From: Bacteroidota bacterium
GTDB taxonomy: Bacteria > Bacteroidota > Bacteroidia > UKL13-3
Assembly: GCA_034439655.1 (NCBI GenBank)
Contig: JAWXAU010000205.1
Span: 1 to 42,875 of the forward strand
DNA length: 42,875 nt
Direction of reading: 5' to 3'
The notes beneath the pieces were generated by a model. The model was not told the origin of the DNA. It saw only the letters and a list, made by a program, of their open reading frames with translations, and searched no databases. Below, piece after piece: positions 7,978 through 39,469 of the stretch (positions are counted from its first letter, which is position 1; each line of letters starts with the position of its first letter). Position numbers and translations under genes: made by a program.

Positions 7978-9122
7978 ATGAAAAACAGCATATTACTCCT
8001 CCCCCATTTCGAATTCGATAACTTCCAATTACAAAGTTGTTAAACCGTTCTTACAAAAGAATTTCTATATTCTTTTATTATTGGCGATGTGTAGCACTAC
8101 TAATTTAATTGCACAAAAAAGAGATTGGACGTTCTTTAATGTACAGCCATCTGGAACTGCTAATCTTAATGGTTTTATTTTTAAAGGTGTCTACAACAAA
8201 AAACACCCGCATTCCCGATTTTACTGCTTATCCTCCTCCTATTACGCCTCCAATTAACAATGGAGTATGGCTTGACCAAACCGATGAATGCACTGTCTCC
8301 AATAGTAAATTTCATTATTGCAAAAATGGCTTGCAGTATTATAATACACACTCAAACCAAGCCACGACAACAATTACAGAAAATGTATTTTTTAACAATC
8401 AATTTGGTTTGGTGATGGCCTCAAGTAACCACCCAAATACATGCGGTAGTATTTGTAATAATACCAATACGAATACTATAGCAGTCAATATTGGGTGTAA
8501 TAATTTTCTGCTGAATAATGTAGGTATTTTTGGTTGCGGTAAATTAAATGATATTGGCGGTGCACAAGAATCCGGAAATATATTTATTTGGAGTAATAGT
8601 AACAATAATAATATTGATTGGGACTTTTTGTGGGATGATTTGTCGGGGAATGCTAATCAGAAACATATTGAATTAAATAGCGGTGGACAGGGGTTCGCAT
8701 ATTATGATATTAACAAACCTAATCACAATACTCTTAATCCTTATCAAATGAATTCAAATGTTGCTTTTTCTTTAAATGGATTTAAAGGCAACTCGAACGG
8801 CGGAGCTCCTTCTGGCTGTAATAGGTCTGCGGGGCGTGCATTTGCCCCTCAGGAGTCTATGAACGAAATAACTCAGCAAATAATATCATATTTCCCAAAC
8901 CCATTTTACGACTTATTAAACATTACTATTAATTCTATAGATGAACAGGAGATTTTCTACTACGAAATATTTGATATGACTGGACGAATCACTCAGAAAG
9001 GAAAATTATCTATAAGCAATAGTATAAACTGTAGTTCAATGCCTTCTGGGGCATATATAATAAAGATTTTTTCTAACAAAGGATTTAATCAGTATAATAA
9101 AATTAATAAACTAAATAATTAG
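7978..9122 (+). pseudogene. Decayed secreted protein with T9SS type A sorting domain
   Basis: The reading is broken. The ATG at 7978 stops after 21 codons. A second frame, open from 7982, encodes a signal-peptide-like stretch (KNFYILLLLAMCSTTNLIAQ, 8057-8116) and continues as 'KRDWTFFNVQPSGTANLNGF' before losing sense near 8190. A third frame from about 8186 to the TAG at 9120-9122 carries the rest. That part has Asn/Gly-rich, repeat-like strands resembling a right-handed beta-helix (FHYCKNGLQYYNT, ENVFFNNQFGL) and a T9SS type A C-terminal domain (ISYFPNPFYDLLNITI…YEIFDMTGR…MPSGAYIIKI). An intact relative would be a T9SS-exported surface or secreted protein. The open stretch from 8109 uses an out-of-frame TTG and is not the true start. 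Confidence 0.75.
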
Positions 9123-9362
9123 ATAGTGCGATATTTAAAATATTTTATATTGCTTATAATAGTAATCAATTGTGACATATCTAATGCCCAATATGATAAC
9201 AATTGGACTTTTGGCTGGCACGGTGGCATTAATTTTAGCACTTCACCCCCAACATTGTTCCAGTCAGGGTCATGTTATGACTCAGGTATTACCAATAAAA
9301 ATGATATAAGTAAATTTTCAAGTGCTATTTCAAGTTGTAGTGGTGATTTACTTTTTTATTTA

Positions 9363-9371
9363 GGGGGGGGG
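9363..9371 (+). repeat. Nine-base G homopolymer inside coding sequence
   Basis: A G9 tract in an otherwise AT-rich gene, in the N-terminal part of the deleted T9SS cargo gene (residues about 80-83, reading Gly-Gly-Gly). Such tracts slip easily, so it may be a phase-variation site or an assembly weak point. Confidence 0.7.
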
Positions 9372-9714
9372 TGTCAGCTATGGAATAAAAATCATAATTT
9401 AATGCCACTAAAAATAAGTTTCCTACCACAACTGTTTGCCAATATCAAGAAAGGAAAAGATAGTTTATATGTGATAACTACAAGGCCTATTGTTAGTTAT
9501 ACTTGGTATAAAGATAATATATTATATAGTAACAGCTCCGCACTTTTACACCCACCCACAGGCAGATATAATGTGCAAGTGCTGGATGCGGATGGATGTG
9601 TAGCTAATAGTAGTTCCTTGATGTTTACTGGGATTGCTAATTATAATAGTAGTGTGTTTAATATATATCCAAATCCGACTAAAGATATATTATATATTGA
9701 GGGAATGCGTGGGA

Positions 9715-9736
9715 TGGTTGGTGGGGACACCAACCA
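9715..9736. repeat. REP-like palindrome inside a coding region
   Basis: TGGTTGGTG-GGGA-CACCAACCA, a perfect 9 bp stem with a 4-nt loop, inserted in the sorting-domain coding region of the 9126 gene between 'YIEG' and 'RIVLHD'. A closely related palindrome lies intergenically at 41061-41084. Confidence 0.65.
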
Positions 9737-9999
9737 CGGACAAACACGCATCGTACTGCATGATATGCTAGGTAAGAAAATATATGATACAATTACAAAT
9801 GGGGAGAATGTATATAGTATAAATGTGGGAGGGCTGCCAAAAGGATTATATATAATACTTGTGGGCGATGTGATGCAAAAGATTGTGGTGGAATAGTAGC
9901 TAAGTCAAAAGACTTTTTATTTCATAAATAACCACAAGTCATCATTCGCTTATGGCCAAACACGCGACACTTGCGGCAAAAATGGGTATTTGCATGCAC

Positions 10000-10048
10000 A
10001 GATTTGACAACTCTGCGTACGTATGGGCTTGGCTGGGTTGTCAAATCT
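10000..10048. repeat. Inverted repeat AGATTTGACAAC … GTTGTCAAATCT
   Basis: Perfect 12 bp arms at 10000-10011 and 10037-10048 with a 25-nt spacer, in the gap 9897-10176 between the truncated cargo gene and the leftward M43 protease gene. The same core (GATTTGACAA) recurs at 16458-16469 and 17231-17278. The rest of this gap shows AT-rich 'aattcgtaatt' repeats and no convincing gene; it may terminate one or both converging transcripts. Confidence 0.6.
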
Positions 10049-10176
10049 ACCAACTGCACTAAAATCGTAGATACCTCCTACATCGGTATAACAAATTTAA
10101 TTAAATTGCGGAATGGGGAATTACGGCTATTCAGCGACAAAAAAAATCGTAATTCGTAATTGAAAATTTGTAATTC

Positions 10177-12270
10177 TTATTCCACCACCAAACTCTTACT
10201 CACACTTCCCTTTTCTGTCACAAAAATCAATTGATAAATTCCTTTGCTCAAGGTATTGTTATATATGTTTCTAAGTTCGAAAGTTGAGGTATTGCTTGGA
10301 AGTTGTACGTTTGTCAATTGTCTTCCTGTCATGTCCACCAAAATAATTTTTATATTATCATATATGTTTTCAGGTAATTTGATAGTGGCATTTCCATTAT
10401 TTGGGTTGGGATAAATTTCAATAATGTTTGCCATATCTATATCATTTGTTGCCAACGGCCACCCACCAACATTAATATTATCTATATAGAAATTATTACC
10501 TACGCCACTTGTGATAAAAGTAAATCTGAGCATTAGATTCTGTACGGTTTGGTAAGCACTCAAACTTACTTTCTCTCTACGCCAATCGGCTGTCGAGGCG
10601 GGAGTGAAGGTACTGTTTTGGGTGGTGGTAGTTTCTAATTTTCCGCCTGATTTTGAAAATATATTATTCCAGTTCAAACCACAATCGGAAGAAGCAAATA
10701 TCTTTAAATTATCAAAACTAGCAGCAGTGCGACGGGCATAGGATATAAAAAATTCTAAGTTGGGGGCCAAGCGTGAAGTCATGTCCAATGGGGGAATGGT
10801 GAGTTCGCAATAATCGCCTACATTGAAATTATTATAGTTATTGATATATAAACAGGAGGTACTAGCATAACCTGTTGTTTTATTTAATTTCCACCCATTA
10901 CTCCCTGCTACTGCCATTGCGGTCAATTCGGACGGCAAGGTGGTATTTGTTTCAAAACTATATTGCCAAGGGGTTTTATAACCCGATACATTTGATACAA
11001 CATTGATATAAGAAATTTTAGTTACCGAGTCGGCTCCGCTTGCATTAGCTACCACCAACTTTACATACATTGAACCGGATTTGGTAAAAGATACGGTAGG
11101 GTTTGAATCTATAGCTGTAGCTGGATTTCCATTTTCGAAATACCATTTATAGTTCGCTACTTTTCCTCTCGTGCTATTATCATAAAACTTAATTTGTGAA
11201 CCTTGACATACATTGACCAATGGCGTATAAAAATCGGCCTTGGGAATACACAAGGCAATATTTGAAGTATCATATACTCCTGTTGCTTTTAAATTGGCTG
11301 TTGTATATATAGTTCCTCGATATTGTTGGAACACGCCATCAATCACATCTTTTTGCCCCGATGAAAACATATTCTGGCATTTACCATCACTGTAATCCAT
11401 AAAGTTTTCTGTTTGGTCGGGAAGATCGGGTACATCATTCGTACAACTGTTACGATTGCTGGGGCAGCCTGAATTTGCTGAAGCTACAGGTGGTGTATCA
11501 TAAACATCTTCTGCCGGGAAACTACCATTACAACCACCTTGAAAGGTATGAAACAAACCCAACCAATGCCCTATTTCATGAGTGGCCACTCGACCATTAT
11601 TTCCACTATTTTTGGCTGAACCTATGCTGCCAAAATAATCTCCTCTTATTAGCACACCATCCGTTTTGGTAGCACCCGAACCTGGATATGGAAATTGTGC
11701 ATAGCCCAAAACCGTTCCTATTCCCCCTCCTCCTATATTATCATCAATAGTTTTCACTATCCATATATTCAAATATTGAGTTTTAGGCCAAGGATTTAAT
11801 TTGCTGGCTTCATTAGCAGTATTGGTAAGCGATGAATATATACGTTCGATGCCATCAGTGCAATTGCCCTGCGGGTCCTTCGTTGCCATACGAAACTCAA
11901 CTTCACAATCAATTGCAACATTTTGAAATATACTTCTTGTACTACTCGCATCTGCATTCTGCCGGCGAAAATCGAGATTGAGAATCCGTATCTGATCAAG
12001 TATTTGATTCTTTGAAATGTTTTCGGGCCCATATTGATGTATTACATGAACCACTACTGGAATGATACGCAGATTGGCTCCACGTTCATTTTTATGCGAA
12101 TGGCCTGCTAATTTTACCCCCTGCTGAAAATTCAGAATTTCATTTTTTAAAGCTATATTATTGTGCAGTTGCTTTTGAAAATATTCATCGGTGAGACAGG
12201 ATTGTGCTTGAATTTGAAGTTTGCTGAAAACAAAAATAGTAAGACTAATAATAATTAATAATTTTTTCAT
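10177..12270 (-). CDS. Secreted M43-family zinc metalloprotease with PKD, MAM-like and T9SS type A domains
   Basis: A 697-residue exported protease. Signal peptide at residues 1-22 (MKKLLIIISLTIFVFS…AQA). The pappalysin-type catalytic domain holds HEIGHWLGLFH (residues 231-241), matching HExxHxxGxxH: H231, H235 and H241 bind zinc and E232 is the catalytic base. A downstream 'ENFMDYSDGKC' fits the Met-turn. A PKD domain follows at about 343-425 (YKWYFENGNPATAIDSNPTVSF), then a choice-of-anchor J/MAM-like domain at about 432-605. The T9SS type A sorting domain at about 615-697 has IIEIYPNPNNG and ends KSLVVE. By family it cleaves extracellular protein, outside or on the surface of the cell. Its start is preceded closely by the end of the MuiA-like gene (52 nt), so co-transcription is possible. 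Confidence 0.92.
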   Translation of the reverse strand: MKKLLIIISLTIFVFSKLQIQAQSCLTDEYFQKQLHNNIALKNEILNFQQGVKLAGHSHKNERGANLRIIPVVVHVIHQYGPENISKNQILDQIRILNLDFRRQNADASSTRSIFQNVAIDCEVEFRMATKDPQGNCTDGIERIYSSLTNTANEASKLNPWPKTQYLNIWIVKTIDDNIGGGGIGTVLGYAQFPYPGSGATKTDGVLIRGDYFGSIGSAKNSGNNGRVATHEIGHWLGLFHTFQGGCNGSFPAEDVYDTPPVASANSGCPSNRNSCTNDVPDLPDQTENFMDYSDGKCQNMFSSGQKDVIDGVFQQYRGTIYTTANLKATGVYDTSNIALCIPKADFYTPLVNVCQGSQIKFYDNSTRGKVANYKWYFENGNPATAIDSNPTVSFTKSGSMYVKLVVANASGADSVTKISYINVVSNVSGYKTPWQYSFETNTTLPSELTAMAVAGSNGWKLNKTTGYASTSCLYINNYNNFNVGDYCELTIPPLDMTSRLAPNLEFFISYARRTAASFDNLKIFASSDCGLNWNNIFSKSGGKLETTTTQNSTFTPASTADWRREKVSLSAYQTVQNLMLRFTFITSGVGNNFYIDNINVGGWPLATNDIDMANIIEIYPNPNNGNATIKLPENIYDNIKIILVDMTGRQLTNVQLPSNTSTFELRNIYNNTLSKGIYQLIFVTEKGSVSKSLVVE

Positions 12271-23097: not shown

Positions 23098-26000
23098 TTG
23101 CTGAAAACTATATTTATTATTTTTTTGAGAAGCTGTCAACTTTTATTTTGCACTATACTTTTAAATCTGCTGTGTTTGCATGCAGAAGCACAATCGTGTA
23201 CAATAAAATGCGATAATTACACTTGTCTTGGAAGTAGTATGGTCTTCGTGCTGGATGCAGGTGCTCAGACACCCGTAAGTTATGATTGGGATTTCGGGGA
23301 TGGGCAAAAATCCACATTATCGTCGCCTGCAAATTTATATATTAAGGCAGGAATATATAAAGTAAAAGTAACGTCTACTTTTACTGGTGGTGCATCGTGC
23401 AGCGATACTAAAACCATTTCTGTATATGACTTGCCTGTTGCCAAATTTTCTATAAACCCAATATCCCAGTTTTGTTTTGTGGGAAATAATATATGCGTTG
23501 CAGACGAAAGTACTGAAAGTGCAGACAAAAATGCGTTAAAAAAGCGAATTATTCTATGGGGCGATGGTGCTGCAAATATTGATACAGGAAGTAGTATAAA
23601 TAACAAAGGACTTTGCCATAGCTATAATCAAACGGGTCAGTTTATTATAGATATGGAAATAACGGACACGAAAGGATGTACTAAAAAGTTTGGGGTTACC
23701 ATTAATATTAAGCATGATATTGTGGCACAGTTTTTTGCAGATACTGTTGACCGAAACTGCGATTCACCTAGGATTTGCTTTACAGATATATCCATTGCAC
23801 AAGCCGGTACACATGTGAAAGGCCGTATATGGAAATCGGGGAATACAACGGATAGCAATGCGACATTTTGCAAAACATTTTACGCAGGAAAGTATGATAC
23901 GGTTAGATTATATAGTTATAATGATTCTGGATGTGTGGATACGGCAGAAACATTTATTTATATTCCGAAGGTAAGCAGTAACTATCAATTTCGCGATTCA
24001 ATAGTCGAGCATTGTTTTGGGACAAATGAGGTTTGGGTAAGTTTGCCGCCTAACTCAGCCTATATAAAAAGTGTGAATACCACATTTTATAATGAGTTTC
24101 ACAAACCACTCGAGAAAGTATTGATATATGTGGGTGAAAATAGCAAATGGGAATTCTATCATATAGCTAGAGAATATGGAGCTGGTGTTTTTTATATAAG
24201 CCAATCTATAAATTATGGTTTTTGTAATACCACTTATACCGATTCGATATATATAAATGGGCCAGGATTAAATGATAAATCAGTAAAATTTAGAAATACA
24301 AATCAGTGTAAAGAAAAGAACGATTCCGTATTTGTATGTGTAGATTTTATTAAGGCTCGTGCAAAGAATGCAAAAGTAACCGTCGACTATGGCGACAACT
24401 ACAGCCCTGCATGTACTTCGTGGGTTGGCAAAGGGATTAATGTGGGACAAAATTGTAATATAAGTCATGATAATCCAAGTGCACATTTATATACTAAGCA
24501 AGGTTGCTATCAATTAAAATTAACCGTAGAAGATACAATTCTACATTGTGTAGATTCTATGATACAAAACGTGTGGATTGGTCCACCCAAGCTTACGCCG
24601 TTTTATTATTCAAGTACCAATCATTGTAAAGGTTCGCTATTCACTTTTTTTAAAGAAAAGATGCAACCTAGTTTGCCTTGCGGTTTTAAAGATTGGTGGA
24701 TTAATTTTGATTCGGCATGTGATATTAAAAATTTTGTACATCGAGATACCACACCACTTGATGGCAACGGAAATCCGTTTACAAGATATAATTATACTTG
24801 CGGCTCCGATGGTTGGGTAACTGTTGGTTTCGTGGGTAAGACAGGTGGTGGCCCAATATATACAGGATGCAATAGTAGCAATGGAGAAATGGATTCGTGT
24901 ATAGATACTATATGGGTGCACAATTGGTTTAGAATATTTCGTCCGAAAGCAATTATGGTGTTACTAAAACAAAATGTATGTGCCAATGGTGAAATAGAAG
25001 TTGGTTTGCGTGATTCTATTCAAGACAGTATAGATATTGTGGTGTGGGATTTTAATGATGGTACTATTGTATATGATACTATAAAGGGACCAAAGTGGCT
25101 TATCAAAAGTCAGAAACATATATATAAATCGCAAGGGCATTGGCCTATTACAGTTACGGTTAATGATAAGCATGGTTGTAGTGCCTATTCCTATCAATTT
25201 ATTGATGTAGGCCATTCTAGTTTTTTTACAGTAAAAGATACCGTGATGTGTATGGGAAGTCCCACAAGGTTTTATGATGATATATGGTATTGGTCATCGA
25301 TAGGAAAATATACCTATAATGATTCCCAATATTTATGGAAATTCGCCAACCGTCCCGAAAAAATGTATTGGTATTTTGGTGATGGCGATTCGGCCACGGG
25401 TACGCGTCCGCAGCACACATATAAGCAAGCAGGTAAATATAAACCTATGCTAGTGAGCATTGATAGTTTGGGATGCATAGATACTTTTTATGCAAATTTT
25501 GGTATACATATATTAAACTTCCATGCAAATTTTTATCAGAAAAATGATAAGTTTTTATGTGGTGAGTTTGTGCAGTTATTCGATTCAAGTTATAGTTCAT
25601 CCGACTCCACTTATACCGCAGCTAACGATACGGCAATATGGTGGGATTGGGATTTTGGCGATGGTAAACGACACAGTAGTTTGCAAAATCCTTATCATAA
25701 TTATTCTTCTTTTGGTTGGTTTACGGTTACCTTAAAAACAAGAAATAAAAAGGGTTGTGAAGATAGTATTTCGAAACGCATATATGTGAAAGGTCCTATT
25801 CCTTCTTTTGAAATTATTTCTGACTCTATCGGCTGTGTCGCAATGACGGTGAGGTTCCGCAATACCAGTATCGATACCACCTGTTCAAGATATATATGGT
25901 TGATGGGCGACAGCAATCGTACTATAATTTCTACCACTAGCGATACAGATATAGTGTTTACTTATACCAAACCGGGCCGATACGAAATATATTTATATGG

Positions 26001-26919
26001 TGAAGACAGTATATATAATCCAGATACCAAAAATAAATATTATTGTTCATCTCTATTTCCCGATACTAATTTTCAAATGAAAAGAGTAGTGATTGTGCAG
26101 CCATTTCTACCAGCAGATTTTACAAAGCCCGATACCGTATGCCCACACCAGTACTTTGATTTGATTGACAAAAGTGATTCTGCATATACTTTTTATAGAA
26201 TAAATTGGGACGATGGAACTTATGATAGTGCAATAGCAAAAACCATCAAACATGCTTATAACAAATCGGGGATATATACCATACAGTATATGCCCGGCAA
26301 TGTGCCACAACCATTATATGATACTTGTTTTAATCAGATATCGAAAACTATTATAGTAAGTAATATTATAGCAGATTTTGATTTGGACGCTACCAAAATT
26401 GGAGAAACGGGTGAGATTGGTACCATTCAAAAATCGACTTACGCTGTAAAATATAAATGGGATTTCGGCAATGCAAAACAGGGAAGTTCAAACAAAAGCA
26501 CAGAAATAGCCCCATCGCATAATTATGCAGGCGACACAGGAATATTTAATGTGTGTTTATGGACATATAATGAACAAGGCTGCTGGGATTCTTTGTGCAA
26601 ACCAGTACACGCATTCCTTATACACCATATTCTCATCCCCAATGTATTTACTGCCAATGGCGATACTATTAATGATGCATTTGATATTGATATAGAAGGC
26701 GAAGAAGATTATCATTTGTATATTTATAACCGTTGGGGTGAATTGGTATTTATAGGAACCGAAGACGGAGAAGGCGATGATGGAAAAAACTGGAATGGTC
26801 ATGTATTCAATACAGGAGCTGAGTGTGCCGAAGGTACTTACTATTGGGTACTATCATGCAGATTTCGAGGGTACAAAAAACAGGAGTATCGTAAAGGCTT
26901 TTTAACTTTGCTGAGGTAG
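23098..26919 (+). CDS. Large PKD-repeat surface protein with T9SS type B sorting domain
   Basis: A 1273-residue exported adhesin-like protein. A signal peptide ends near LCLHAEAQS (about residue 33). The only fitting starts are TTG at 23098 or CTG at 23101. The body is a chain of PKD and PKD-like beta-sandwich units, shown by SYDWDFGDGQKST, VVWDFNDGTIV, MYWYFGDGDSATGTRPQHTY, WWDWDFGDGKRHSSLQNPYHNY and YKWDFGNAKQGSS. Cysteines recur near the beginning and end of units. The last ~95 residues are a T9SS type B domain: IPNVFTANGDTINDAFDI, IYNRWGELVF, ending GFLTLLR. T9SS would carry it across the outer membrane. A role in adhesion or gliding is inference. It is free-standing, divergent from dut. 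Confidence 0.88.
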   Translation: MLKTIFIIFLRSCQLLFCTILLNLLCLHAEAQSCTIKCDNYTCLGSSMVFVLDAGAQTPVSYDWDFGDGQKSTLSSPANLYIKAGIYKVKVTSTFTGGASCSDTKTISVYDLPVAKFSINPISQFCFVGNNICVADESTESADKNALKKRIILWGDGAANIDTGSSINNKGLCHSYNQTGQFIIDMEITDTKGCTKKFGVTINIKHDIVAQFFADTVDRNCDSPRICFTDISIAQAGTHVKGRIWKSGNTTDSNATFCKTFYAGKYDTVRLYSYNDSGCVDTAETFIYIPKVSSNYQFRDSIVEHCFGTNEVWVSLPPNSAYIKSVNTTFYNEFHKPLEKVLIYVGENSKWEFYHIAREYGAGVFYISQSINYGFCNTTYTDSIYINGPGLNDKSVKFRNTNQCKEKNDSVFVCVDFIKARAKNAKVTVDYGDNYSPACTSWVGKGINVGQNCNISHDNPSAHLYTKQGCYQLKLTVEDTILHCVDSMIQNVWIGPPKLTPFYYSSTNHCKGSLFTFFKEKMQPSLPCGFKDWWINFDSACDIKNFVHRDTTPLDGNGNPFTRYNYTCGSDGWVTVGFVGKTGGGPIYTGCNSSNGEMDSCIDTIWVHNWFRIFRPKAIMVLLKQNVCANGEIEVGLRDSIQDSIDIVVWDFNDGTIVYDTIKGPKWLIKSQKHIYKSQGHWPITVTVNDKHGCSAYSYQFIDVGHSSFFTVKDTVMCMGSPTRFYDDIWYWSSIGKYTYNDSQYLWKFANRPEKMYWYFGDGDSATGTRPQHTYKQAGKYKPMLVSIDSLGCIDTFYANFGIHILNFHANFYQKNDKFLCGEFVQLFDSSYSSSDSTYTAANDTAIWWDWDFGDGKRHSSLQNPYHNYSSFGWFTVTLKTRNKKGCEDSISKRIYVKGPIPSFEIISDSIGCVAMTVRFRNTSIDTTCSRYIWLMGDSNRTIISTTSDTDIVFTYTKPGRYEIYLYGEDSIYNPDTKNKYYCSSLFPDTNFQMKRVVIVQPFLPADFTKPDTVCPHQYFDLIDKSDSAYTFYRINWDDGTYDSAIAKTIKHAYNKSGIYTIQYMPGNVPQPLYDTCFNQISKTIIVSNIIADFDLDATKIGETGEIGTIQKSTYAVKYKWDFGNAKQGSSNKSTEIAPSHNYAGDTGIFNVCLWTYNEQGCWDSLCKPVHAFLIHHILIPNVFTANGDTINDAFDIDIEGEEDYHLYIYNRWGELVFIGTEDGEGDDGKNWNGHVFNTGAECAEGTYYWVLSCRFRGYKKQEYRKGFLTLLR

Positions 26920-27470: not shown

Positions 27471-30400
27471 TTGAAAAAACTATTATATATATTTATTATA
27501 CTATTTGCCACGCAGGTAAATGCACAGGTTACGAGCAATAAGGGCACTGACTTTTGGGTGACCTATGCCAACCACTATGAAGGTAGCAATAGCCAAATGG
27601 CATTATATATAACTTCGGATGTGAACACGAGCGGCACCGTTTCTATACCCGGTAAAAGTTGGTCGACCACTTATACTGTGAGTGCAAATTCCATCACTAT
27701 CATATCCATTCCACAAACTTTTGCCATTATGAACTGCACCGAATGCACGCAGAGTAAGGGAATTAATGTTACCAGCGTGGATCCTGTGGTGGTTTATTCA
27801 CATATATATTATAAAAACAAATCGGATGCAACACTTGTGCTGCCTACCGAAACTGCAGGACGAGAGTATTATGTGATGGGTGCTACCCAAATGAAAACAG
27901 GTTATAACAATACAACAGGCGTGTATAGTGCAAGTCAATTTCAGATTATTGGATTATATGATAGTACAGAAATAGAGATTACACCCACAGCAGGAAGTAT
28001 AAATTCGGCCCACAGCAAGGGCAGCACTTTTAATATATATTTAAACAAAGGTGAAGTATACCAATACCAATCGGATACTGACCTTACGGGTACTTATATA
28101 ACATCGGTAACGAGCAGCGGCACCAATTGTAAGCGTATAGCAGTATTTGCAGGTAGCACCTGGACGCCCTTGGGATGCAGTGGGGCGGGCACAGGCGATA
28201 ATTTATACCAACAATTATATCCAGTTAGTGCGTGGGGTAAATCATTTGCAACTGCACCTTGGAAAACAAGAACTGGTGGTGATGTATATAGAGTTTTGGC
28301 ATCGGTGAATAGCACAAAAGTTACCATAAATAACTATAATACACAAACGCTTAGTGCAGGTCAATATTATGAGTGGATGATTGATTCGGCACAATATATT
28401 ATAGCAGACCAGCCCATTTGTTTGGCTCAATATCAACGAACGCAAAGTTGCGATAACGTAACGGGGGACCCCAGTATGACTATATTGTCGCCCATTGAAC
28501 AACAGCTCAGCAATATAACTTTATACAGTTCGCCTTATTATCAGATTAGTGGACATTATATAAATATATTGATGGAAAGTGATGATACCAGTAATTTTTA
28601 TTTGGACAATAATAAAGTGATATGGAAAACTATCCCTGCAAATACCACCTATGCATACTCGCAAACTGCGGTGAGCAGTGGCAACCATACACTTATTGCC
28701 GATAGCGGATTTAATGCGATAGCTTATGGCTTTGGAAATATAGAAAGCTATGGATACAGTGCAGGTGCCAATATTGTGAATTTGGTACAACATATAGAAT
28801 TAGGTAATACCAAAGAATGCAAAGGGCGAAGTGTTTCGTTTAAAGGTTTCTGTGTATATACTCCCATAAAATGGAAATGGACATTTGGCGATGGAGGTAC
28901 GGATACAGTACAGAATCCTTATCATATTTATCAAGATACGGGCACTTTTATAGCCACCTTGGTTACGTTAAAATCGAATGGGAATGATTGCAGTTCGCAG
29001 GACTCAACGATTTATACCGTAAAAATATCTATGCTGCCCGTCGCTGATTTTACTTACGACAATTCCTGCTCAAAAGGGGATGTAAATTTCTATGATAAAA
29101 GTAGTATTGCAAACGGAAGTATAACTAAGTACTATTGGGAATTTGGCGACGGATCTTATGCTACTTCCAAAAATACCACACACCATTATAATAATACTGG
29201 AAACTATACCGTAAAATTAATGGTGACCTCGGCAAGCTTATGTGACTCAACCATCTCAAAAACTATTACTGTAAATGAAACACCTGCCGCAAACTTTAAT
29301 ATAACACAAATTTGCTATCCTGACACTATCGTACTTTTTGATTCATCGACCTTGGGCAATGTATATAAAACAAACTATAGTTGTTCTAAAGCCTATGTGA
29401 GGTGGGGTGATGGCACTGTGAGCGATACTTTTTATAACCAAATAGGCAATCAGAATTTCAAACATAAATATAACACTTATGGCACTTATTCGGTTACTAT
29501 CATCGTGAACGATTGTTATAAGACTTGTGTTGATTCATTTACCAAATCGGTTATTATATATGATAAACCAAAACCGAAGTTTGTATTGAGCAATACTTGT
29601 CAAAAAGACAGTTTCACCATTATTGATTCATCGAGTATTGCCTATGGCTCAATTACGCAGTGGGATTGGACCTTTGGCGATGCTACGACCAAAACGTATA
29701 CCAGCAAAGTAAGTAGTTTTAAGAAAGCATATACCAATAATGGTGTGTATCTGATCTCGTTGAAAGTATATAATGCCAATGCTTGCTATGATACGGTATC
29801 GCAATATATAACTATATACCCCAAACCAAAACCAGGATTTACTTTTGGAAATGTATGTTATCCTTTCACTGCTACTTTTAATGATACCTCTACCATTACT
29901 TCGGGGAGTATTGTATATAAAAGAATTTATTTTGGCGATGGCAAGGATAGCATATTTACAAGTAGTTCTGTGGGGCATACATTTACCACTGCTGGAACTT
30001 ATACGGTAAAATTATATTTGGAGAGCAATATGGGCTGCAAAGATTCGGTAAGTAAAAGTATAGTTATATATCCAAAACCAACCGTAAATTTCACGGTTAC
30101 CAATTCGTGCTTGAATGATTCGGTACCATTTACGGAAAGTTCTAGTGTTTCATCAGGTTCAATTACCAAACGCTATTATGATTTTGGCGATGGCGATACT
30201 ATCACTTATTTCACTACCAAAAGTAGTTTCAAAAAATTATATCAGGATACTGGCATCTATGCTGTGCAATTAATTATATATACCGATAAGGGCTGCTCAG
30301 ATAGCGTAAGCAAAAATGTATATATCGCCCCATTGCCTACGCCTGTGTTCTCGACACTAAACGTGTGTTACCAAGATACTGCCTCGTTCTACGATTCGAC

Positions 30401-33400
30401 AAATATATACAATACCAATATCATCAAATGGACTTGGGATTGGGGTGATGCACAAACCACTACATATACAACTTATAGCAGCTCCGTAAAACACTATTAT
30501 AGCACTTCGGGAATATATAAAGTCGTACTAAAAATAACAAATACCACCAATTGTTATGATACTTTTTCGCAATATCTACAGATATATAAAAAACCTTTCA
30601 TGGGTTTTACCGCTATCAATAATTGCTTAAATGACAGTGTGATATTTACTGACACTTCTATCTCTGCTGATGGTCAAATAATCAGTAGGAACTGGGACTT
30701 TGGGGATGCAAGTACCTCAAATGGTAATGACAGTATCGTTAAACATCATTATAATAGTATTGGAAATAAAACAGTGAAATTGGTTGAAATTTCTCAATAT
30801 GGTTGTAAGCAAACCTATACAAAAAATATCACGATTGATACCGTGCCTGTACCAGCGTTTTCTAATACAACGGGTTGTGCAAAAGACAGTATTATATTCA
30901 CCAATGCCAGTACCATAAAATCGGGAAGTATATCAAATTATCAGTGGATCTGGGATGATACCACCACTTCTGCGGTAACAAATAGCAGCAATATCAAACA
31001 CGGGTATTGGAAAGGTGGCTATAAAAATGTATCGCTGATTGCATACTCTGCCAAAGGTTGCAGAGACACCCTTACGAAAAAAATATATATAAACCCCAGA
31101 CCCAATGTCACTTTCTCAACGCCTGGAATATGTTTTAAAGACTCCGTTACTTTTGTAGATTATTCTACTTTGGATAGTGGCAGTATAACACTCTGGCGAT
31201 TTGATTTTGGCGACGGGAATCAAACTACTTATTTTTCGAAGAGTAATTTAACGCACAAGTATGCCACGCCAAATACCTATCCTGTAAAGATGTATATAGA
31301 GACTACTTGGGGATGTGCTGACAGTGCCACTGCACAGTTTGTTGTAAACTCGTCACCCGTGGCCAAAATTTCTTGGGACAAACTCTGCAAGAACGATTTC
31401 GTGTTATTTATTGACTCAACGTATATGGCTTATGGAAGCGTGTTGAAATGGTTCTGGAAATTCGGAGACAGCTATTCTGATACCCTAAAAAACCCTTTAC
31501 ATAAGTATGCGGATACAGGAACTTATACCGTTTCACTAAAAGTGAAATCTGGGAATTTGTGTGAAGATTCTACCACTACAAAAGTTTATATAAACTTAAA
31601 CCCGCTTACCAAATTTACATTGAGCAATATATGTGAGGACGATACTGTGGTGGTTAATATACAATCATCGTTATATAATAACCCATTGCTATATTATGTA
31701 TGCAACTGGGGCGACGGAAGTATTGATACTTCAACATCTTCTAAGATGAAGCATGGCTATAGTAATTGGGGCTACTATCCGATTACAGTCAACACCTTAT
31801 CCATTTACAGTTGTGGCGATACCTTAACCAAATATGTATATATTCGTCCAAAACCTATTCCTACTTTTAATTTCAACCAAGTTTGTATTTATGATAGTTT
31901 GTATTTAATTGATTCCAGTTTTATACCACGAGGAAATATTATACAATGGAAATGGGATTGGGGCGATGGAAACCAAACCACAAAGAATACGAATATAGCT
32001 GTAGCACATAAATACAATGCTCCAGGCAAATACTCCGTAAGCCTTTTGCTTAGCAGCGACAGTGGTTGTAGTGATATAAAGTATGATACCGTGGAGATAT
32101 ACCCGGTACCCAAACCCAAAATCTACATTGCTGATTCAAGTCAGTGCGAACCTATGCAACAATTTAATTTTATTGATACTTCCACCATCGCTTATGGTTA
32201 CTATAGCCGTGTTTGGGATTTTGGTGATGGCAATACGGATACGAACAAAACGATTACACATACCTATGCTACTTACGGAAATTATACCGTAAAGCTCAAA
32301 CTTAAGTCTGTCAATGGTTGTGAGGATTCAACCACACAAAGTATTATAGTGTACGAAACACCCAAACCTAGAATATATTATACCATAGCCGATAGTTGTG
32401 AGCAAACTGATATTATCAATTTGTATGATAGTACTACCTCAAAAACAGTGACGTGGAATGTGAATTGGACTTTCGGTGATGGCAATAACAGCAATGCTTT
32501 CAACCCTGTACATCATTATAATGCAAGCGGAAGTTACAAAGTGCAATTGTATATTACTTCATTAAATGGTTGTGTAGATTCTATTACACAAAATATTATT
32601 GTTCATGCAAATCCAGTGGTACAAATTTCTACCAATAATAACTGTTTTGGGGATTCTTCTGTATTTGTGGATTTATCGAGTGTTTCTGTAGGTACTATAG
32701 CCAAAAGAGTTTGGTACTTTGGAGATGGAGATTCACTTTCTACAAACAAAACAACTATTTCACATTTATATAAAGTTTTTGGTTCTTACCAAGTAATATT
32801 AAAATGTACCACTAATAAATTATGCGAGTGGAGTGATACGCAAACTATTGTGATACAACCAAAGCCTAACGCCAGTTTTTACCAAATACAAAACTGTGTG
32901 AATGATTCGGTCGTATTTGTAGATCAGTCAACGGTTTCAACAGGGAAGCTTGTTTCTCGTTTGATGTATTTTGGAGATGGAGATTCATCCTATTTTAGTG
33001 ATACTTTGTTAAAGCATAAATATATAAACAGTGGCAATTATATTTCCACCATCAAAATAATTTCGGATAGTGGATGCAGCGATATATTTACTAAGAATAT
33101 AATTATATACCCTAAGCCTAGTGCTAAAGTTTTTGCTGCCAATGCTTGTTTGAACAACGTGGTTGCAATTTACGATAGTAGCAGTGGAATTTACCCTATT
33201 GGATATCGCTACTATAGTTTCGGCGATGGAATGGATACCGTGACAGATCAAAGTATTTTCTTTCACCAATATACTACTTCAGGTTATAATACTATTACAC
33301 AGATTGTACAAAACTCTGTAGGATGCTTTGATACCAATAGTATTACAATATATATATATCCGCTGCCCAAGTTCAATATCAAAAATACCAATGCTTGTGC

Positions 33401-34667
33401 ATTTGAGCTTATGCGTTTTAATGATTCAACAACGATTGATTCTGGCGGTTTCAAGCAGTTTGTGTGGGATTTTGGTGATAACTCTGGAAAATTATATTCG
33501 CCTAAAAATGTGGGTGTGGGACATATATATAATTATGGTGGAATCTATAATATAAGTGTGGCCACACAAACAGGATTTGGTTGTACCGATTCATTTAATT
33601 TTTCTGTATATATCAATTATTCTCCTGAACCAAAATTTATTGCTGATGATGTTTGCGTGGGAGATAGTACCATATTCAGCGACTTATCTACTATTCCCCG
33701 AGATACTATTAAACAGTGGGATTGGGACTTTGGTGATGGAAAAAAAATAAGTTATAATACTTTTTCTTCTTTATTCTCGCATCTATATGATACTGCTGGA
33801 AATTTTTTGGTAAAGCTAACTTGCACCAGTAGCTCCAATTGTAAAAAGGACTATACTAGTTATATAACGGTTCACGATATTCCACATATTAAATATAAGA
33901 TTGACTCTTACCGTGGTTGCTTACCACTTACTATCAATTTCAAAGACAAATCATATAATTCAACCGATTCTATTGTTTCTTATGCATGGGATTTTGGTGA
34001 TGGCTATGGTTCTGTTTTGCAAAGCCCTATCCATACATTCCGTAAATCGAAACTATATACTGTTTCATTAAAACTCGTTTCAGCATTTGGTTGTATTAAT
34101 TCATTTATTGACTCTACGCCTATCTTCCCATACCCGCTTCCCAAGGCCATCATCAATGCCTTCCCCGATTCTACACCTTCGCTACAGGCCTTAGTTCAAT
34201 TCAGCAATTTATCATTTCAATATATACAAGGCAAGTGGGATTTTGGCGACGGTACCACTTCGACCTTGACCAATCCATTCCACCACTACGAAGACACAGG
34301 AGCTTATAATTCTCAATTGGTAGTGAAGAATCATTTTGGTTGTTATGATACGGCCTACAAACGTATCTTCATCATGCCCGATTTTACTTTTTATGTGCCC
34401 AATACTTTCACACCCAATGATGATGACCTCAACGAAACCTTTGGCCCCAAAGGGTTATTCAAAGGTATTATACATTTTCAAATGACTGTATGGAACCGAT
34501 GGGGAGGGGTGGTATTTGAAACAACAGATATCAATAATCAATGGAACGGTACTTTTAGAAACCAAGGTGTGGCCTCACCTATGGATGTATATATATACCG
34601 CATGGAATACCAAGACTATTTTGGACGAAAACATAATTCTGCTAATCAGGTGCATTTGATAAGGTGA
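27471..34667 (+). CDS. Giant IgGFc-binding-like / 22-PKD-repeat surface protein with T9SS type B domain
   Basis: A 2398-residue exported protein starting at TTG 27471 with a clean signal peptide (LKKLLYIFIILFATQVNAQ). Residues about 20-440 match the N-terminal domain found in IgGFc-binding-protein-like bacterial surface proteins (GTDFWVTYANHYEG, VDPVVVYSHIYY, AGREYYVMGATQMK, YQQLYPVSAWGKSFATAPW). Then come 22 PKD-like units of about 80-85 residues, each built on a W-x-F-G-D-G motif or variant; most begin near a Cys and end 'GC.DS/T', suggesting one disulfide per unit, with 'IYPKPKP'-type linkers. The final ~95 residues are a T9SS type B domain (VPNTFTPNDDDLNETF, WNRWGGVVFE, ending HLIR). It should form a long surface fibre, probably an adhesin (inference). 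The next gene starts 3 nt after its stop. Confidence 0.9.
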   Translation: MKKLLYIFIILFATQVNAQVTSNKGTDFWVTYANHYEGSNSQMALYITSDVNTSGTVSIPGKSWSTTYTVSANSITIISIPQTFAIMNCTECTQSKGINVTSVDPVVVYSHIYYKNKSDATLVLPTETAGREYYVMGATQMKTGYNNTTGVYSASQFQIIGLYDSTEIEITPTAGSINSAHSKGSTFNIYLNKGEVYQYQSDTDLTGTYITSVTSSGTNCKRIAVFAGSTWTPLGCSGAGTGDNLYQQLYPVSAWGKSFATAPWKTRTGGDVYRVLASVNSTKVTINNYNTQTLSAGQYYEWMIDSAQYIIADQPICLAQYQRTQSCDNVTGDPSMTILSPIEQQLSNITLYSSPYYQISGHYINILMESDDTSNFYLDNNKVIWKTIPANTTYAYSQTAVSSGNHTLIADSGFNAIAYGFGNIESYGYSAGANIVNLVQHIELGNTKECKGRSVSFKGFCVYTPIKWKWTFGDGGTDTVQNPYHIYQDTGTFIATLVTLKSNGNDCSSQDSTIYTVKISMLPVADFTYDNSCSKGDVNFYDKSSIANGSITKYYWEFGDGSYATSKNTTHHYNNTGNYTVKLMVTSASLCDSTISKTITVNETPAANFNITQICYPDTIVLFDSSTLGNVYKTNYSCSKAYVRWGDGTVSDTFYNQIGNQNFKHKYNTYGTYSVTIIVNDCYKTCVDSFTKSVIIYDKPKPKFVLSNTCQKDSFTIIDSSSIAYGSITQWDWTFGDATTKTYTSKVSSFKKAYTNNGVYLISLKVYNANACYDTVSQYITIYPKPKPGFTFGNVCYPFTATFNDTSTITSGSIVYKRIYFGDGKDSIFTSSSVGHTFTTAGTYTVKLYLESNMGCKDSVSKSIVIYPKPTVNFTVTNSCLNDSVPFTESSSVSSGSITKRYYDFGDGDTITYFTTKSSFKKLYQDTGIYAVQLIIYTDKGCSDSVSKNVYIAPLPTPVFSTLNVCYQDTASFYDSTNIYNTNIIKWTWDWGDAQTTTYTTYSSSVKHYYSTSGIYKVVLKITNTTNCYDTFSQYLQIYKKPFMGFTAINNCLNDSVIFTDTSISADGQIISRNWDFGDASTSNGNDSIVKHHYNSIGNKTVKLVEISQYGCKQTYTKNITIDTVPVPAFSNTTGCAKDSIIFTNASTIKSGSISNYQWIWDDTTTSAVTNSSNIKHGYWKGGYKNVSLIAYSAKGCRDTLTKKIYINPRPNVTFSTPGICFKDSVTFVDYSTLDSGSITLWRFDFGDGNQTTYFSKSNLTHKYATPNTYPVKMYIETTWGCADSATAQFVVNSSPVAKISWDKLCKNDFVLFIDSTYMAYGSVLKWFWKFGDSYSDTLKNPLHKYADTGTYTVSLKVKSGNLCEDSTTTKVYINLNPLTKFTLSNICEDDTVVVNIQSSLYNNPLLYYVCNWGDGSIDTSTSSKMKHGYSNWGYYPITVNTLSIYSCGDTLTKYVYIRPKPIPTFNFNQVCIYDSLYLIDSSFIPRGNIIQWKWDWGDGNQTTKNTNIAVAHKYNAPGKYSVSLLLSSDSGCSDIKYDTVEIYPVPKPKIYIADSSQCEPMQQFNFIDTSTIAYGYYSRVWDFGDGNTDTNKTITHTYATYGNYTVKLKLKSVNGCEDSTTQSIIVYETPKPRIYYTIADSCEQTDIINLYDSTTSKTVTWNVNWTFGDGNNSNAFNPVHHYNASGSYKVQLYITSLNGCVDSITQNIIVHANPVVQISTNNNCFGDSSVFVDLSSVSVGTIAKRVWYFGDGDSLSTNKTTISHLYKVFGSYQVILKCTTNKLCEWSDTQTIVIQPKPNASFYQIQNCVNDSVVFVDQSTVSTGKLVSRLMYFGDGDSSYFSDTLLKHKYINSGNYISTIKIISDSGCSDIFTKNIIIYPKPSAKVFAANACLNNVVAIYDSSSGIYPIGYRYYSFGDGMDTVTDQSIFFHQYTTSGYNTITQIVQNSVGCFDTNSITIYIYPLPKFNIKNTNACAFELMRFNDSTTIDSGGFKQFVWDFGDNSGKLYSPKNVGVGHIYNYGGIYNISVATQTGFGCTDSFNFSVYINYSPEPKFIADDVCVGDSTIFSDLSTIPRDTIKQWDWDFGDGKKISYNTFSSLFSHLYDTAGNFLVKLTCTSSSNCKKDYTSYITVHDIPHIKYKIDSYRGCLPLTINFKDKSYNSTDSIVSYAWDFGDGYGSVLQSPIHTFRKSKLYTVSLKLVSAFGCINSFIDSTPIFPYPLPKAIINAFPDSTPSLQALVQFSNLSFQYIQGKWDFGDGTTSTLTNPFHHYEDTGAYNSQLVVKNHFGCYDTAYKRIFIMPDFTFYVPNTFTPNDDDLNETFGPKGLFKGIIHFQMTVWNRWGGVVFETTDINNQWNGTFRNQGVASPMDVYIYRMEYQDYFGRKHNSANQVHLIR

Positions 34668-34670
34668 TAT

Positions 34671-35345
34671 ATGAAAAACTATATTATACTGTTATCATTT
34701 ATAATGCTGCTTTCCTGTAAAAATGATACACAAATAGAAGCAGTGCCCATTCCTCACGGACTCAAAATTCCCCCACGGGGAATTGATATTACTTTAGTGC
34801 AAAGACACAGTATAGATATAGTAGGCTACGGATCCAATCTGCATGTAAAGATAGATGAAATCACTGCGAAGCAAACAATTATCACACTTCAAGATTCTCA
34901 AATTATATTACAACAATCTATCCACGAAGGCGATACTTTTGCTTTTGAATTTGGTGGAGTAGGATATATTATAGAATGTAAAAAATTAATCAATCATTTA
35001 TTAGATGAAGACAATGGAATTTTCACCATCACCAGAGATTCACTGAATAAAAAAGTTGCCGTATTGAGCGAGAAAGAAAAGATAGAAAAACTATTATATA
35101 CAATTGCTCATTCCAATTTTATTTTCATCCGTAATGGCGATGAACATAAATCCGCCGATGCCGCATCACACCTGCGTAGCAAATGGGACTATGCAAAAAA
35201 TGATATACATACCGTAAATGATTTTATCGAAAAAATTGGCAGCAAATCATCAAGTTCAGGAAAATCCTATCAAATAAAACTTCCAAACGGAAGTATTGTA
35301 GGTGCCGAGAAATGGATGAGGGAGCTGGTGGAGGGGATGAAGTAG
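34671..35345 (+). CDS. DUF5329-like lipoprotein coupled to the giant adhesin
   Basis: A 224-residue predicted lipoprotein, lipobox LLSC with Cys16. The first half is a beta-rich region of unknown type (HSIDIVGYGSNLHVKIDE, GDTFAFEFGGVGYIIECKK). The second half matches the DUF5329 pattern: EKIEKLLYTIAHSNFIFIRNGDEHKSADAASHLRSKW in pieces, then VNDFIEKIGSKSSSSGKSYQIKLPNG. Function of DUF5329 is unknown. The ATG lies 3 nt after the stop of the 2398-residue adhesin gene, so the two are surely co-transcribed and may work together at the surface. Confidence 0.8.
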   Translation: MKNYIILLSFIMLLSCKNDTQIEAVPIPHGLKIPPRGIDITLVQRHSIDIVGYGSNLHVKIDEITAKQTIITLQDSQIILQQSIHEGDTFAFEFGGVGYIIECKKLINHLLDEDNGIFTITRDSLNKKVAVLSEKEKIEKLLYTIAHSNFIFIRNGDEHKSADAASHLRSKWDYAKNDIHTVNDFIEKIGSKSSSSGKSYQIKLPNGSIVGAEKWMRELVEGMK

Positions 35346-35580
35346 GGTCTTTATATTGAATTAATATGACACTAATGTAGTTTAATATGCATAGTAAAAA
35401 AATATCCACTACAGAGCTTTCGTCAATATTGATAGGCAACTTAACTTTTCTAAACTAATTTAAATGCTCGCTAAAGCCCTATTTAATCATAACTAACACA
35501 GATGTGTGGAATTAAACCTTAAAAGCTTAAATCTTTGTTATAAATTTAAGCGTTAATTTGCAATTGTATTATTTTCATAA

Positions 35581-36606
35581 ATGAGTCAATTTTCCTTCAT
35601 AAAAGATATAGCTAAGTACGGTCTGGAAAATGACCAAGAAAAACTATTGTCTACTTTAAATGAGCTTATTGAACATTCAAAGTAAAGCAAAAAAATAAAT
35701 TTTGCTTTACAGCTTCAATCAATTTTAAAGGATACAATTCGTCAACAACAAACTAGCGGTCTGACAAAAGTTGGTTCTGACAATTATACGCAAAGAGCTG
35801 AGGATAGAGAGGTTAATGAACTAATTCTAGAAAAATTAACAAGTGATTATTCTTTTGAAAATTTAGTTTGTGACAATAGAGTAAAGCAGGAACTTGAATA
35901 TTTCATAAAGGAACACCAAGCAGCTGATATTTTGCTCACGTATGACTTACCCATTGCTAATAAAGTATTACTTTATGGCCCTTCTGGCTGTGGTAAAACA
36001 TTGGCTTCTTATGTTCTGGCAGGAGAACTGCAAAAAATGATGGTCGTTGTAAATTTAGGAGCAATTGTATCTGCAAAACTTGGGGAAACAAGTAAAAACC
36101 TAGCAAAAATATTTCGTAAAGCTGCTTCTGAAGAATGTATAATTTTCATTGATGAATTTGACTCTCTTGGTAAAGTTAGAGATTATGGACAAGACCACGG
36201 AGAAATGAAACGAGTTGTAAATACTATTTTACAACTATTTGATTACTTACCGCAGAACAGTTTGGTTATTGCAGCAACCAATCAAAAGGAAATGGTTGAT
36301 GATGCTTTGCTCCGCCGATTTGATTTTAGTTTGAATTTTGATTTACCAACAGTTAGACAAATTAATGAGCTTATTAAACTGACTTTAAGAAATGGGCAAT
36401 TTGTATTTGACAATAAAACTAGAGCCGCCGAAGTAATTAAATTATCAAAAGCACTATCATATTACAGTGTTCAAAAAACTCTCGTCACAGCAATCAAAAG
36501 AAGTATTTTTAGTCAAGCTAAAAAGGCAAGACCTATCATTACAAAAATTAGCACGACCGTTTGGAGAGAATTAATTATTGAAGAGAAAAAAGCTTTTTCG
36601 AGATAA
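35581..36606 (+). pseudogene. AAA ATPase with in-frame premature stop
   Basis: From the ATG at 35581 one frame runs to the TAA at 36604-36606, broken only by a TAA at 35683-35685 (codon 35). Without it the product would be 341 residues. An N-terminal helical part (MSQFSFIKDIAKYGLENDQ … NFALQLQSILKDTIRQQQ) leads to the AAA core: Walker A GPSGCGKT (codons 133-140), Walker B IIFIDEFDSLG, sensor-1 VIAATN and LLRRFDF with the arginine-finger region. By family it remodels or unfolds protein with ATP. It faces a broken S8-protease gene, with stops 2 nt apart. AAA/S8 gene pairs recur in bacterial accessory regions, and a conflict role is inference. Only a restart at TTG 35932 or later could give a truncated ATPase. 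Confidence 0.82.
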
Positions 36607-36608
36607 TT

Positions 36609-38520
36609 CTAAGCTTCAGCTTCCATATCTTCAATTGTATTCAATAATTCTAGTGTATTAATCGCAGTTAGTTCATCATATAGTCTTCCCGTTCTGTTTT
36701 TAATTTGTGTATTTTCCTCTATTGTAAAAACAATAGAAAATGTAATTTTTCTGTCTTTCAATTTACTTTTATCAAGTGCATTAAGCAACTTATGGAGCTT
36801 TGCATTTACTACTATTTTCAAAACACAATCTTCCTCAATCAAAACTTTCTTTGAAATTGAGAAATTTATCCGTTGTGTATTGCTCAACATCTTTGCTTTG
36901 AAATAATAATCCTGTGACCAAGATTCTGAAAAAACATAGTTAGAAGTTTTAATATTATTTATACCTGTCGAAATATTCTTTCCTTTTTCATTCTTGAGAA
37001 GGTTTCCATTTCAATCATAAGCATAATCTTCTAAAGGTTTATTTCTAAATACACCAAAGGAAATGTGCAAAGGATTATATGCTAAATAATGATGTTTTAA
37101 TGGCTCGAATTTGAAACATAAAGTTGCTTTTACTTTCAGCAATGAACTTGTTTGGTCAATATCAATTAAATATTTAGGAATTTGAATAGGATAGGATTGT
37201 ATATTGTCGGGGTGAATATCATCTTCTAATATTATTGTTGCAGAATTTTCAGATGAATAAAGGCAACTTTTATCATCGGGGATTCCATGACCTATTATTG
37301 AATTTGGAAGAATATCCTCCACTCTTTCAAACGCTTTTCCAATATCACTATCCATCGCCGCATTAAAGATTAAGGCTTTCACGGTTTGCATATTTTTGTT
37401 TATATCAGGATACGTTTTCAGAATCCATAAATCTGGTGAGCTTCTCGAATTAATCTTAGAACCTCACTTTCTATAATATAACCAGAGGAACCGTTTAAAA
37501 TTTTTATACTTAGTAATTTTGCGTCAGCTTCAAAACTTCCAATAGGATTTAGATAAAATTTCTTACCAAAAGCTGCCAAAGCCCCTACAGCAGTTCCATG
37601 ATTGGCCTCATCAATATTGATTTCTGTCGAAGTTAGATTTAAATTATTATCGGTATTTACAATTAAATCTCTTAAGGGAGTTTCAGCACTAATACCAGTG
37701 TCGATAATTCCAATAATAGGTAAATCTTCACTTGAATTGCTTATCGTAAAACCAAAAGATTTATCAGACAAATTGAATATATCTGGTTTAACAAAACCTG
37801 CTGCATAGGAATTAATAGATTGTAGAATATCAAAGTTATCAGCAATCTCCTTTAAATTATTTACAGTGATATTCAACAACTCAATTTTGTTATTATTCAA
37901 ATCTTGAAAATCTCGAATTTCGTTTTCATCTAGGTATTGCTTTAACCTCCTTTCAATCGGTTGTATATAGTTTAGAAATATCTCAACATTGTCAATGAAA
38001 TCAATGATGACATGTGGTTTAAGCTCTTTATACTTGATTATTTTCTCAGAAGAATAGAATGTAAATTCTTTAATATATTTTATAGCTGGATGATACTGTG
38101 GATTTGAATGATTTGTAGTGTCAATAAAAATTTGAAGTTGTTGAATAAAATAATCAAATTTATCTTCAGAAATTACTACAAATAATCCAACAGTATTAAA
38201 TATACTATAACGTGTTGGAGACAATCCAAAATTTGCTCTATAACGATTTTCAAAAACATCCGAATCAAATACATCATGGAAAACAATTTCAATCAAATCA
38301 ACTTTGGCTGGTACTTGCAGAGAATTATTCCTATTTGCTTCTCTTTTGTTTTTTCATCTCTATACTGTCTAATAGAACGAATAAAGTCTTCTCTTTTAGG
38401 ACTGTAATCTTTTTTTTATTCAACTCCTTCTTGTTGAGCACCAGAGTATCTAGATACTTGTTTATATCTTGTTACACCTTCTTGTGGATTACGAAACATT
38501 CTATGCGGTTTGTTTGTCAT
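36609..38520 (-). pseudogene. S8 subtilisin-like protease, heavily degraded
   Basis: The original start is probably the ATG at 38518-38520 (MTNKPHRMFRNPQEGV…). Lesions read leftward: TAA at 38416-38418; a frameshift near 38330 between '…RQYRDEKTKEKQ' and 'NNSLQVPAKVDLIEIVF'; an internal deletion plus frameshift at about 37395-37420; and an in-frame TGA at 37011-37013. The catalytic Asp (PIIGIIDTGIS, codon 199 of the 38296 frame) and His (NHGTAVGALA, codon 233) remain. The sequence then jumps from REAHQIYGF to LKTYPDINKNMQTVKALIFNAA, the helix that normally follows GTSxAxP. The oxyanion Asn and catalytic Ser region are therefore gone. The C-terminal domain continues to the TAG at 36609. No active protease can be made. 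Confidence 0.85.
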
Positions 38521-38578
38521 AAACTACGAATATTCTTCTCTATAATTTAGATATAATGATCTTTTAGTAGAATAATTA

Positions 38579-39469
38579 TCACTCATATCCAAACTGCTTC
38601 AACAGCCCATCATCATTTCTCCAATTTTCTTTTACTTTTACAAACGTATGTAGGAAAACTTGCTTGGCCCAAAATTTCTCCATAGTATGGCGTGAGCGGC
38701 TTCCAATCATTTTTAATTTACTACCGCCTTTACCAATTAATATAGCCTTTTGGCTATCACGCATTACATATATAGTGGCTTCAATTTTTAATATTTTGGC
38801 GTTGTCTTTAAAACTTTCTATCACTACTTCTACATTATAAGGAACCTCTTCTTGATACGCTGTCATAATTTGTTCGCGTATCATTTCGGCTGCAATAAAT
38901 CTTTCACTACGGTCGGTGAGTTGTTCCTTATCATAATAATAAGGACCTTCGGGAAGTAGTGATTTTATTAAATCTAAAAGCGTATCTACATTGAATTTTT
39001 TGAGTACCGAAATTGCCAATATATGTGCAGGTGCTAGTAATTCTTTTACTTGTTCCATGCGTTCATTCACAACTTCGGGCGTACTCACATCCATTTTGTT
39101 AAGAACTGCTATTACAGGCTTGTCCATCTTTTTGAGCTTCTGTACAAACTCATCATCTTCCCATTTATCATCCAAGTCTATCATATATACAAATACATCA
39201 GCATCGGCAAAACTTTCGTTTACAAAACCCATCATTTTTTCGTGGAGTTTATGAGCAGGTTTTAAAGTACCTGGTGTATCAGAAAAAACAATTTGATAAT
39301 CGTCGCCACTTAATATACCTTGTATACGGTGACGTGTAGTTTGTGCTTTGTGCGTAACAATAGACAAACGCTCGCCCAACAAGGCATTGAGCAACGTAGA
39401 TTTGCCAGCATTCGGTCGTCCTATAATACTTACAAAACCGGAGTGGGCTAATATTTTATTTGGATCCAT
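38579..39469 (-). CDS. era: GTPase Era
   Basis: A 296-residue GTPase that binds 16S rRNA and aids 30S assembly. G1 GRPNAGKS (residues 17-24), effector-loop TTRHRIQGI, G3 SDTPG, G4 NKMD and the 'AHILAISVLKKFNVDTL' G5 region are visible. The C-terminal KH domain carries the IGKGGSKLKMIG loop, followed by VKVKENWRNDDGLLKQFGY, the usual Era ending. Length is normal. It lies 48 nt downstream of hutH on the same strand, so they may be transcribed together. Confidence 0.96.
   Translation of the reverse strand: MDPNKILAHSGFVSIIGRPNAGKSTLLNALLGERLSIVTHKAQTTRHRIQGILSGDDYQIVFSDTPGTLKPAHKLHEKMMGFVNESFADADVFVYMIDLDDKWEDDEFVQKLKKMDKPVIAVLNKMDVSTPEVVNERMEQVKELLAPAHILAISVLKKFNVDTLLDLIKSLLPEGPYYYDKEQLTDRSERFIAAEMIREQIMTAYQEEVPYNVEVVIESFKDNAKILKIEATIYVMRDSQKAILIGKGGSKLKMIGSRSRHTMEKFWAKQVFLHTFVKVKENWRNDDGLLKQFGYE

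Follow-up and report, generated by a model that had tools for sequence, protein, structure and literature searches.

A decayed ATPase–protease gene pair and a tail-to-tail branch related to IetAS in Bacteroidota

Two-gene toxin–antitoxin and defence modules almost always form operons, a layout usually seen as part of the mechanism. The stretch of DNA analysed here (the window: 42,875 nt, contig JAWXAU010000205.1 of the Bacteroidota bacterium assembly GCA_034439655.1) carries an AAA ATPase gene and a subtilisin-like protease gene that face each other and are both broken. Does this arrangement belong to the decay of a single copy, or to the family from which the pair descends? A sequence-only reading had proposed an ATPase–protease conflict pair, inactivated here, in an unusual convergent order. 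Comparison with relatives placed the pair with the IetAS family, also a PADLOC defence system, and gave a different answer on the order.

The decayed pair and its site

Both genes are recognisable, through alignments to the IetA and IetS proteins of L007 and through matches to the PADLOC IetA and IetS models. L007, the closest intact pair, comes from a Flavobacteriales MAG and served as the reference for lesion mapping. The features of the locus are as follows.

34671–35345, plus strand: left flank, DUF5329 gene (Pfam PF17263, 1e-27)
35346–38540, no strand: stretch missing from the congener G033; two genes, nothing else recognised inside
35581–36606, plus strand: ietA pseudogene, AAA ATPase, antitoxin-like partner (best PADLOC IetA match 5e-67; Pfam AAA 1e-30)
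35683–35685, plus strand: in-frame nonsense codon, codon 35 of ietA (sequence and L007 alignment)
35965–36342, plus strand: AAA domain in the frame still open 3′ of the nonsense codon (Pfam AAA, residues 94–219 of the open frame starting at 35686)
36604–36611, no strand: tail-to-tail junction, with the ietA stop at 36604–36606, a 2-nt gap and the ietS stop at 36609–36611 (sequence; kept in relatives)
36609–38520, minus strand: ietS pseudogene, S8 subtilisin-like protease, toxin- or effector-like partner (PADLOC IetS 1e-11 and 7e-6 in two pieces; three-frame alignment to L007 IetS)
37011–37013, minus strand: in-frame nonsense codon in ietS (sequence and L007 alignment)
37424, minus strand: breakpoint of a deletion (about 570 nt) that also changes the frame; L007 residues 374–564, including the catalytic serine, are gone (blastn and tblastn against L007; triad columns of the relatives' alignment)
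38344–38353 (approximate), minus strand: ietS frameshift (frame switch in the alignment to L007 IetS)
38416–38418, minus strand: in-frame nonsense codon in ietS (sequence and L007 alignment)
38579–39469, minus strand: right flank, era-type GTPase with KH domain (Pfam MMR_HSR1 and KH_2)

The three nonsense codons and the 2-nt spacing of the stops agree with what the sequence-only reading had reported, and the shift it had placed near 38330 was located at about 38344–38353. Its second shift, near 37400, does change the frame; however, it is the large deletion at 37424 and not a mere shift.

The intact L007 IetA aligned over its full length to 35581–36603 (84% identity, E 0), with one internal stop codon in the window gene; the ATPase is truncated, with its normal N-terminus lost. 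L007 IetS aligned piecewise, in three frames, to 36612–38520 (60–72% identity, E 3e-147). Beyond the two pieces that hit the IetS models, the protease frames gave a weak Pfam Peptidase_S8 match, and the C-terminal piece matched none of the PADLOC IetS models. The predicted structure of IetS adopts a subtilase fold at medium confidence (pLDDT 77). The catalytic triad Asp281, His315 and Ser545 (L008 numbering) is invariant in the alignment of convergent relatives; the window gene still encodes Asp and His, and Ser is deleted. Because the serine region is gone, we class the window copy as a non-working IetAS member, its protease dead as judged from the alignment, with the deletion at 37424 as the most damaging lesion.

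In G033 the DUF5329 gene and era lie about 235 nt apart without the pair, and G034 has neither the pair nor the DUF5329 gene at the corresponding site. Similarity by blastn between the window and L007 is confined to the pair (35551–38499). Since the congener site is empty and DNA similarity to L007 is limited to the pair, these comparisons indicate that the two genes entered beside era as one compact cassette, decaying afterwards. No integrase is visible with the cassette. Elsewhere in the window, 23098–26919 and 27471–34667 each encode a large PKD-repeat protein that carries type IX secretion signals; the latter has an IgGFc-binding domain in addition.

A convergent branch related to IetAS

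Scanning genome contigs with the window ATPase yielded 22 loci, 60–85% identical, of which 21 have ietS on the other strand in a tail-to-tail arrangement with ietA. The remaining locus, L028, is a decayed lone ietA on a Sphingobacterium faecium contig that also carries, about 24 kb away, a convergent ietAS pair whose frames are open (L023). Later searches added eight genomes (G098, G277, G771, G639, G462, G724, G938 and G846) and two viral contigs (L123 and L124), all convergent. Intact homologues therefore do occur as pairs, and every relative retaining both genes (31 of 31) has the convergent layout; the genes are adjacent in 30 of these 31, as in the window. In L010 (Chitinophaga japonensis), the two genes are separated by a gene that matches the defence reverse transcriptase Drt8 (9079–10686), located on the ietS strand, 18 nt after ietS.

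More distant pairs are organised differently. Twenty-six IetAS pairs in Bacteroidota and eight reference pairs from plasmids and one phage (Proteobacteria and Actinobacteria, pTiC58 included) are all same-strand with the ATPase first (34 of 34 examined), an order found neither in the window nor in any of its 31 relatives. The IetAS of the Agrobacterium Ti plasmid pTiC58 (Yamamoto et al. 2009, as cited in PMC5006074) likewise combines an AAA ATPase with an adjacent subtilisin-like protease of about 800 residues, and both the IetA and IetS models match; its genes, however, form the ATPase-first, same-strand arrangement, whereas those of the window are tail to tail. SgiAT of Salmonella genomic island 1 (PMC5006074) and the AAA-ATPase/subtilisin-like module TA132/133 of Mycoplasma mycoides (PMC8562856) share both protein classes, yet SgiAT is an operon with the antitoxin gene first, and TA132/133 is an RNA-seq-confirmed operon with the antitoxin upstream and no intergenic gap.

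Phylogenetic analysis mirrored this division. In a 76-protein IetA tree, one branch (support 99/99) divides 32 convergent rows, the window included, from 33 operonic ones, with pTiC58 IetA on the operonic side. The tree topology indicates that the layout changed once; which layout came first is a matter of inference on an unrooted tree, the operonic form being far more widespread. A convergent-IetA profile scored convergent proteins at 537–653 bits and operonic ones below 191 bits, a gap that is partly by construction, as the profile was built from the convergent rows; only two lone phage ATPases (470–480 bits) fall between the two groups.

Because the layout is convergent throughout, we file these loci as a separate branch related to IetAS and not as classical IetAS. 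We read the branch, from its sequences, as a Bacteroidota variant of IetAS with a convergent layout—a toxin–antitoxin-like defence module without an operon. No published description of such a variant was found in a literature search that left out preprints and most subscription papers. The order that had seemed unusual is thus the rule within the pair's own branch, and unusual only against the operonic one (pTiC58, SGI1, mycoplasma).

Several IetA-like ATPases occur without IetS. Two viral contigs, L125 (52.5 kb) and L126 (50.6 kb), carry a lone IetA-like ATPase near a tail tape-measure gene (5998–6999 and 5998–7002, respectively), with no IetS anywhere in either contig. These ATPases are sister to the convergent branch in the IetA tree and are possibly orphan antitoxins used by phages against IetAS. 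Shorter solo ATPases (about 235 residues; L097:3965–4678, L098:3995–4702 and many similar matches) lack both the N-terminal domain and an IetS; they are chromosomal and common in the class. L060 and L061 likewise have an IetA-like ATPase but no IetS; the gene after it in L060 resembles, by eye, a type I restriction specificity subunit.

Probable role of the convergent pairs

The two proteins travel together. Of 395 genomes of the class, seven contain IetA and IetS of the convergent branch, in each case both, the window genome with its IetS in pieces among them; no orphan of either was found among the 395. Their distance matrices correlate (r 0.46, matched by 0 of 2000 permutations).

Defence genes accompany several of the convergent loci: DRT reverse transcriptases near L010, L018 and L024, type I restriction enzymes near L019 and L020, a DISARM component near L203, and AbiE and Thoeris components in a pooled scan. 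Several other convergent loci have no recognised defence neighbour. The suggestion that defence genes might lie nearby holds for those relatives and not for the window, where no specific defence gene appears among 25 neighbours and the PADLOC matches listed are UvrD-type helicase models only.

Roles have been assigned experimentally in the operonic systems. In SGI1 the protease was tested as toxin and the ATPase as antitoxin (PMC5006074), and the mycoplasma proteins have the same roles, deletion of the ATPase gene alone being lethal and the protease gene being deletable (PMC8562856). IetAS itself is listed as a phage-defence system with its mechanism described as unknown (PMC11878078, PMC9958689). 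By homology, the convergent pair most likely consists of a protease effector and an AAA ATPase that restrains it. IetA would hold the subtilisin-like IetS in check, perhaps also acting as a sensor for infection or element loss; if this control failed, IetS would cleave proteins and the cell would be stopped or killed, which could serve phage defence or maintenance of the element.

A housekeeping protein-quality system, in which an unfoldase feeds a protease, would be compatible with the same AAA ATPase and protease domains, and the pair lacks the operonic order that would fit a toxin with its antitoxin. We nevertheless regard it as rather unlikely: the distribution is patchy (7 of 395 genomes), the insertion is cassette-like, the pair turns up in viral contigs and near defence genes, and its homologues are tested toxin–antitoxin pairs. 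The window pair is probably a recently inactivated member of the convergent IetAS branch, whose working copy would be an IetA-restrained IetS effector, even though the operonic co-expression of every characterised member, absent here, counts against it.

Two further lines of evidence were considered and dropped. The protease frame is broken in three relatives (L015, L021 and L026) with the ATPase open, and the reverse was never seen; this 3-to-0 imbalance is not significant, and as an argument for a toxin role it fails because there are only three cases and the protease gene has about 2.4 times the length of the ATPase gene. An acidic C-terminal tail of IetS was discarded as a hallmark of the branch, its contrast with operonic IetS being weak.

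Decay, junction and layout

Were the lesions assembly or sequencing errors, the window pair would really be intact. The assembly is a draft, with 205 contigs; however, five lesions fall within 3 kb, amid long frames (2398, 1273 and 1047 codons) that are intact. These open neighbouring frames, and a 570-nt deletion that mistaken base calls would not produce, make sequencing error an improbable source, and we give an intact pair very little credence. Codon comparison with L007 gave dN of 0.09 for ietA and 0.16–0.20 for the ietS pieces; dS, at 1 to 3, was close to saturation. These values indicate that both genes were formerly under strong and long purifying selection, and the low dN/dS relative to L007, the nearest intact pair, suggests that they decayed recently. 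As a pseudogene pair, the window copy is ordinary.

Its layout is not a product of that decay. Stops in the relatives lie a median of 2.5 nt apart (range −14 to 46) and within 15 nt in 27 of 30 pairs (L010 excluded); a comparison set of 32 other convergent gene pairs, drawn mostly from these loci, has a median of 126 nt, with 7 pairs within 15 nt. That ietS was inverted within a former operon might be suspected, as all characterised IetAS pairs are operonic and the window copy is damaged, yet intact relatives are convergent with the same tight spacing, including the nearest, L007, with 1 nt between its stops. We consider inversion during decay ruled out for practical purposes: all pairs found in the branch are convergent, so the order predates the decay. 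Chance adjacency of unrelated genes, which opposite strands and the lack of a common transcript might suggest, is equally implausible given the side-by-side recurrence in 31 relatives, the tight spacing, the perfect co-occurrence across the 395 genomes and the correlated divergence.

Since the genes face each other and do not form an operon, each would need its own promoter. For the same reason the 3′ ends of the ietA and ietS transcripts probably overlap in most loci, wherever the junction lacks a terminator. In general the junction showed no conserved RNA structure (mean z about −0.5 and −0.4); only four loci have strong hairpins there, and those of L023 and L024 resemble two-way terminators. 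For the convergent branch as a whole we infer the toxin and antitoxin roles, the defence function, and the transcript overlap, along with any regulatory effect it may have.

More speculatively, a whole branch of IetAS may have exchanged co-expression from an operon for a conserved tail-to-tail layout whose stop codons touch or overlap, and opposed transcription, through effector and restraint mRNAs that overlap at their 3′ ends, may help to check the protease; we hold this as a tentative idea, less likely than the effector reading above. The main value of the window pseudogene is the convergent branch to which it points. There the pair has been kept but facing, with protease identity falling as low as 26%, which raises the question of how the balance between restraint and effector is held without co-transcription. 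Such convergent loci may be misread by tools or readers looking for pairs on one strand.
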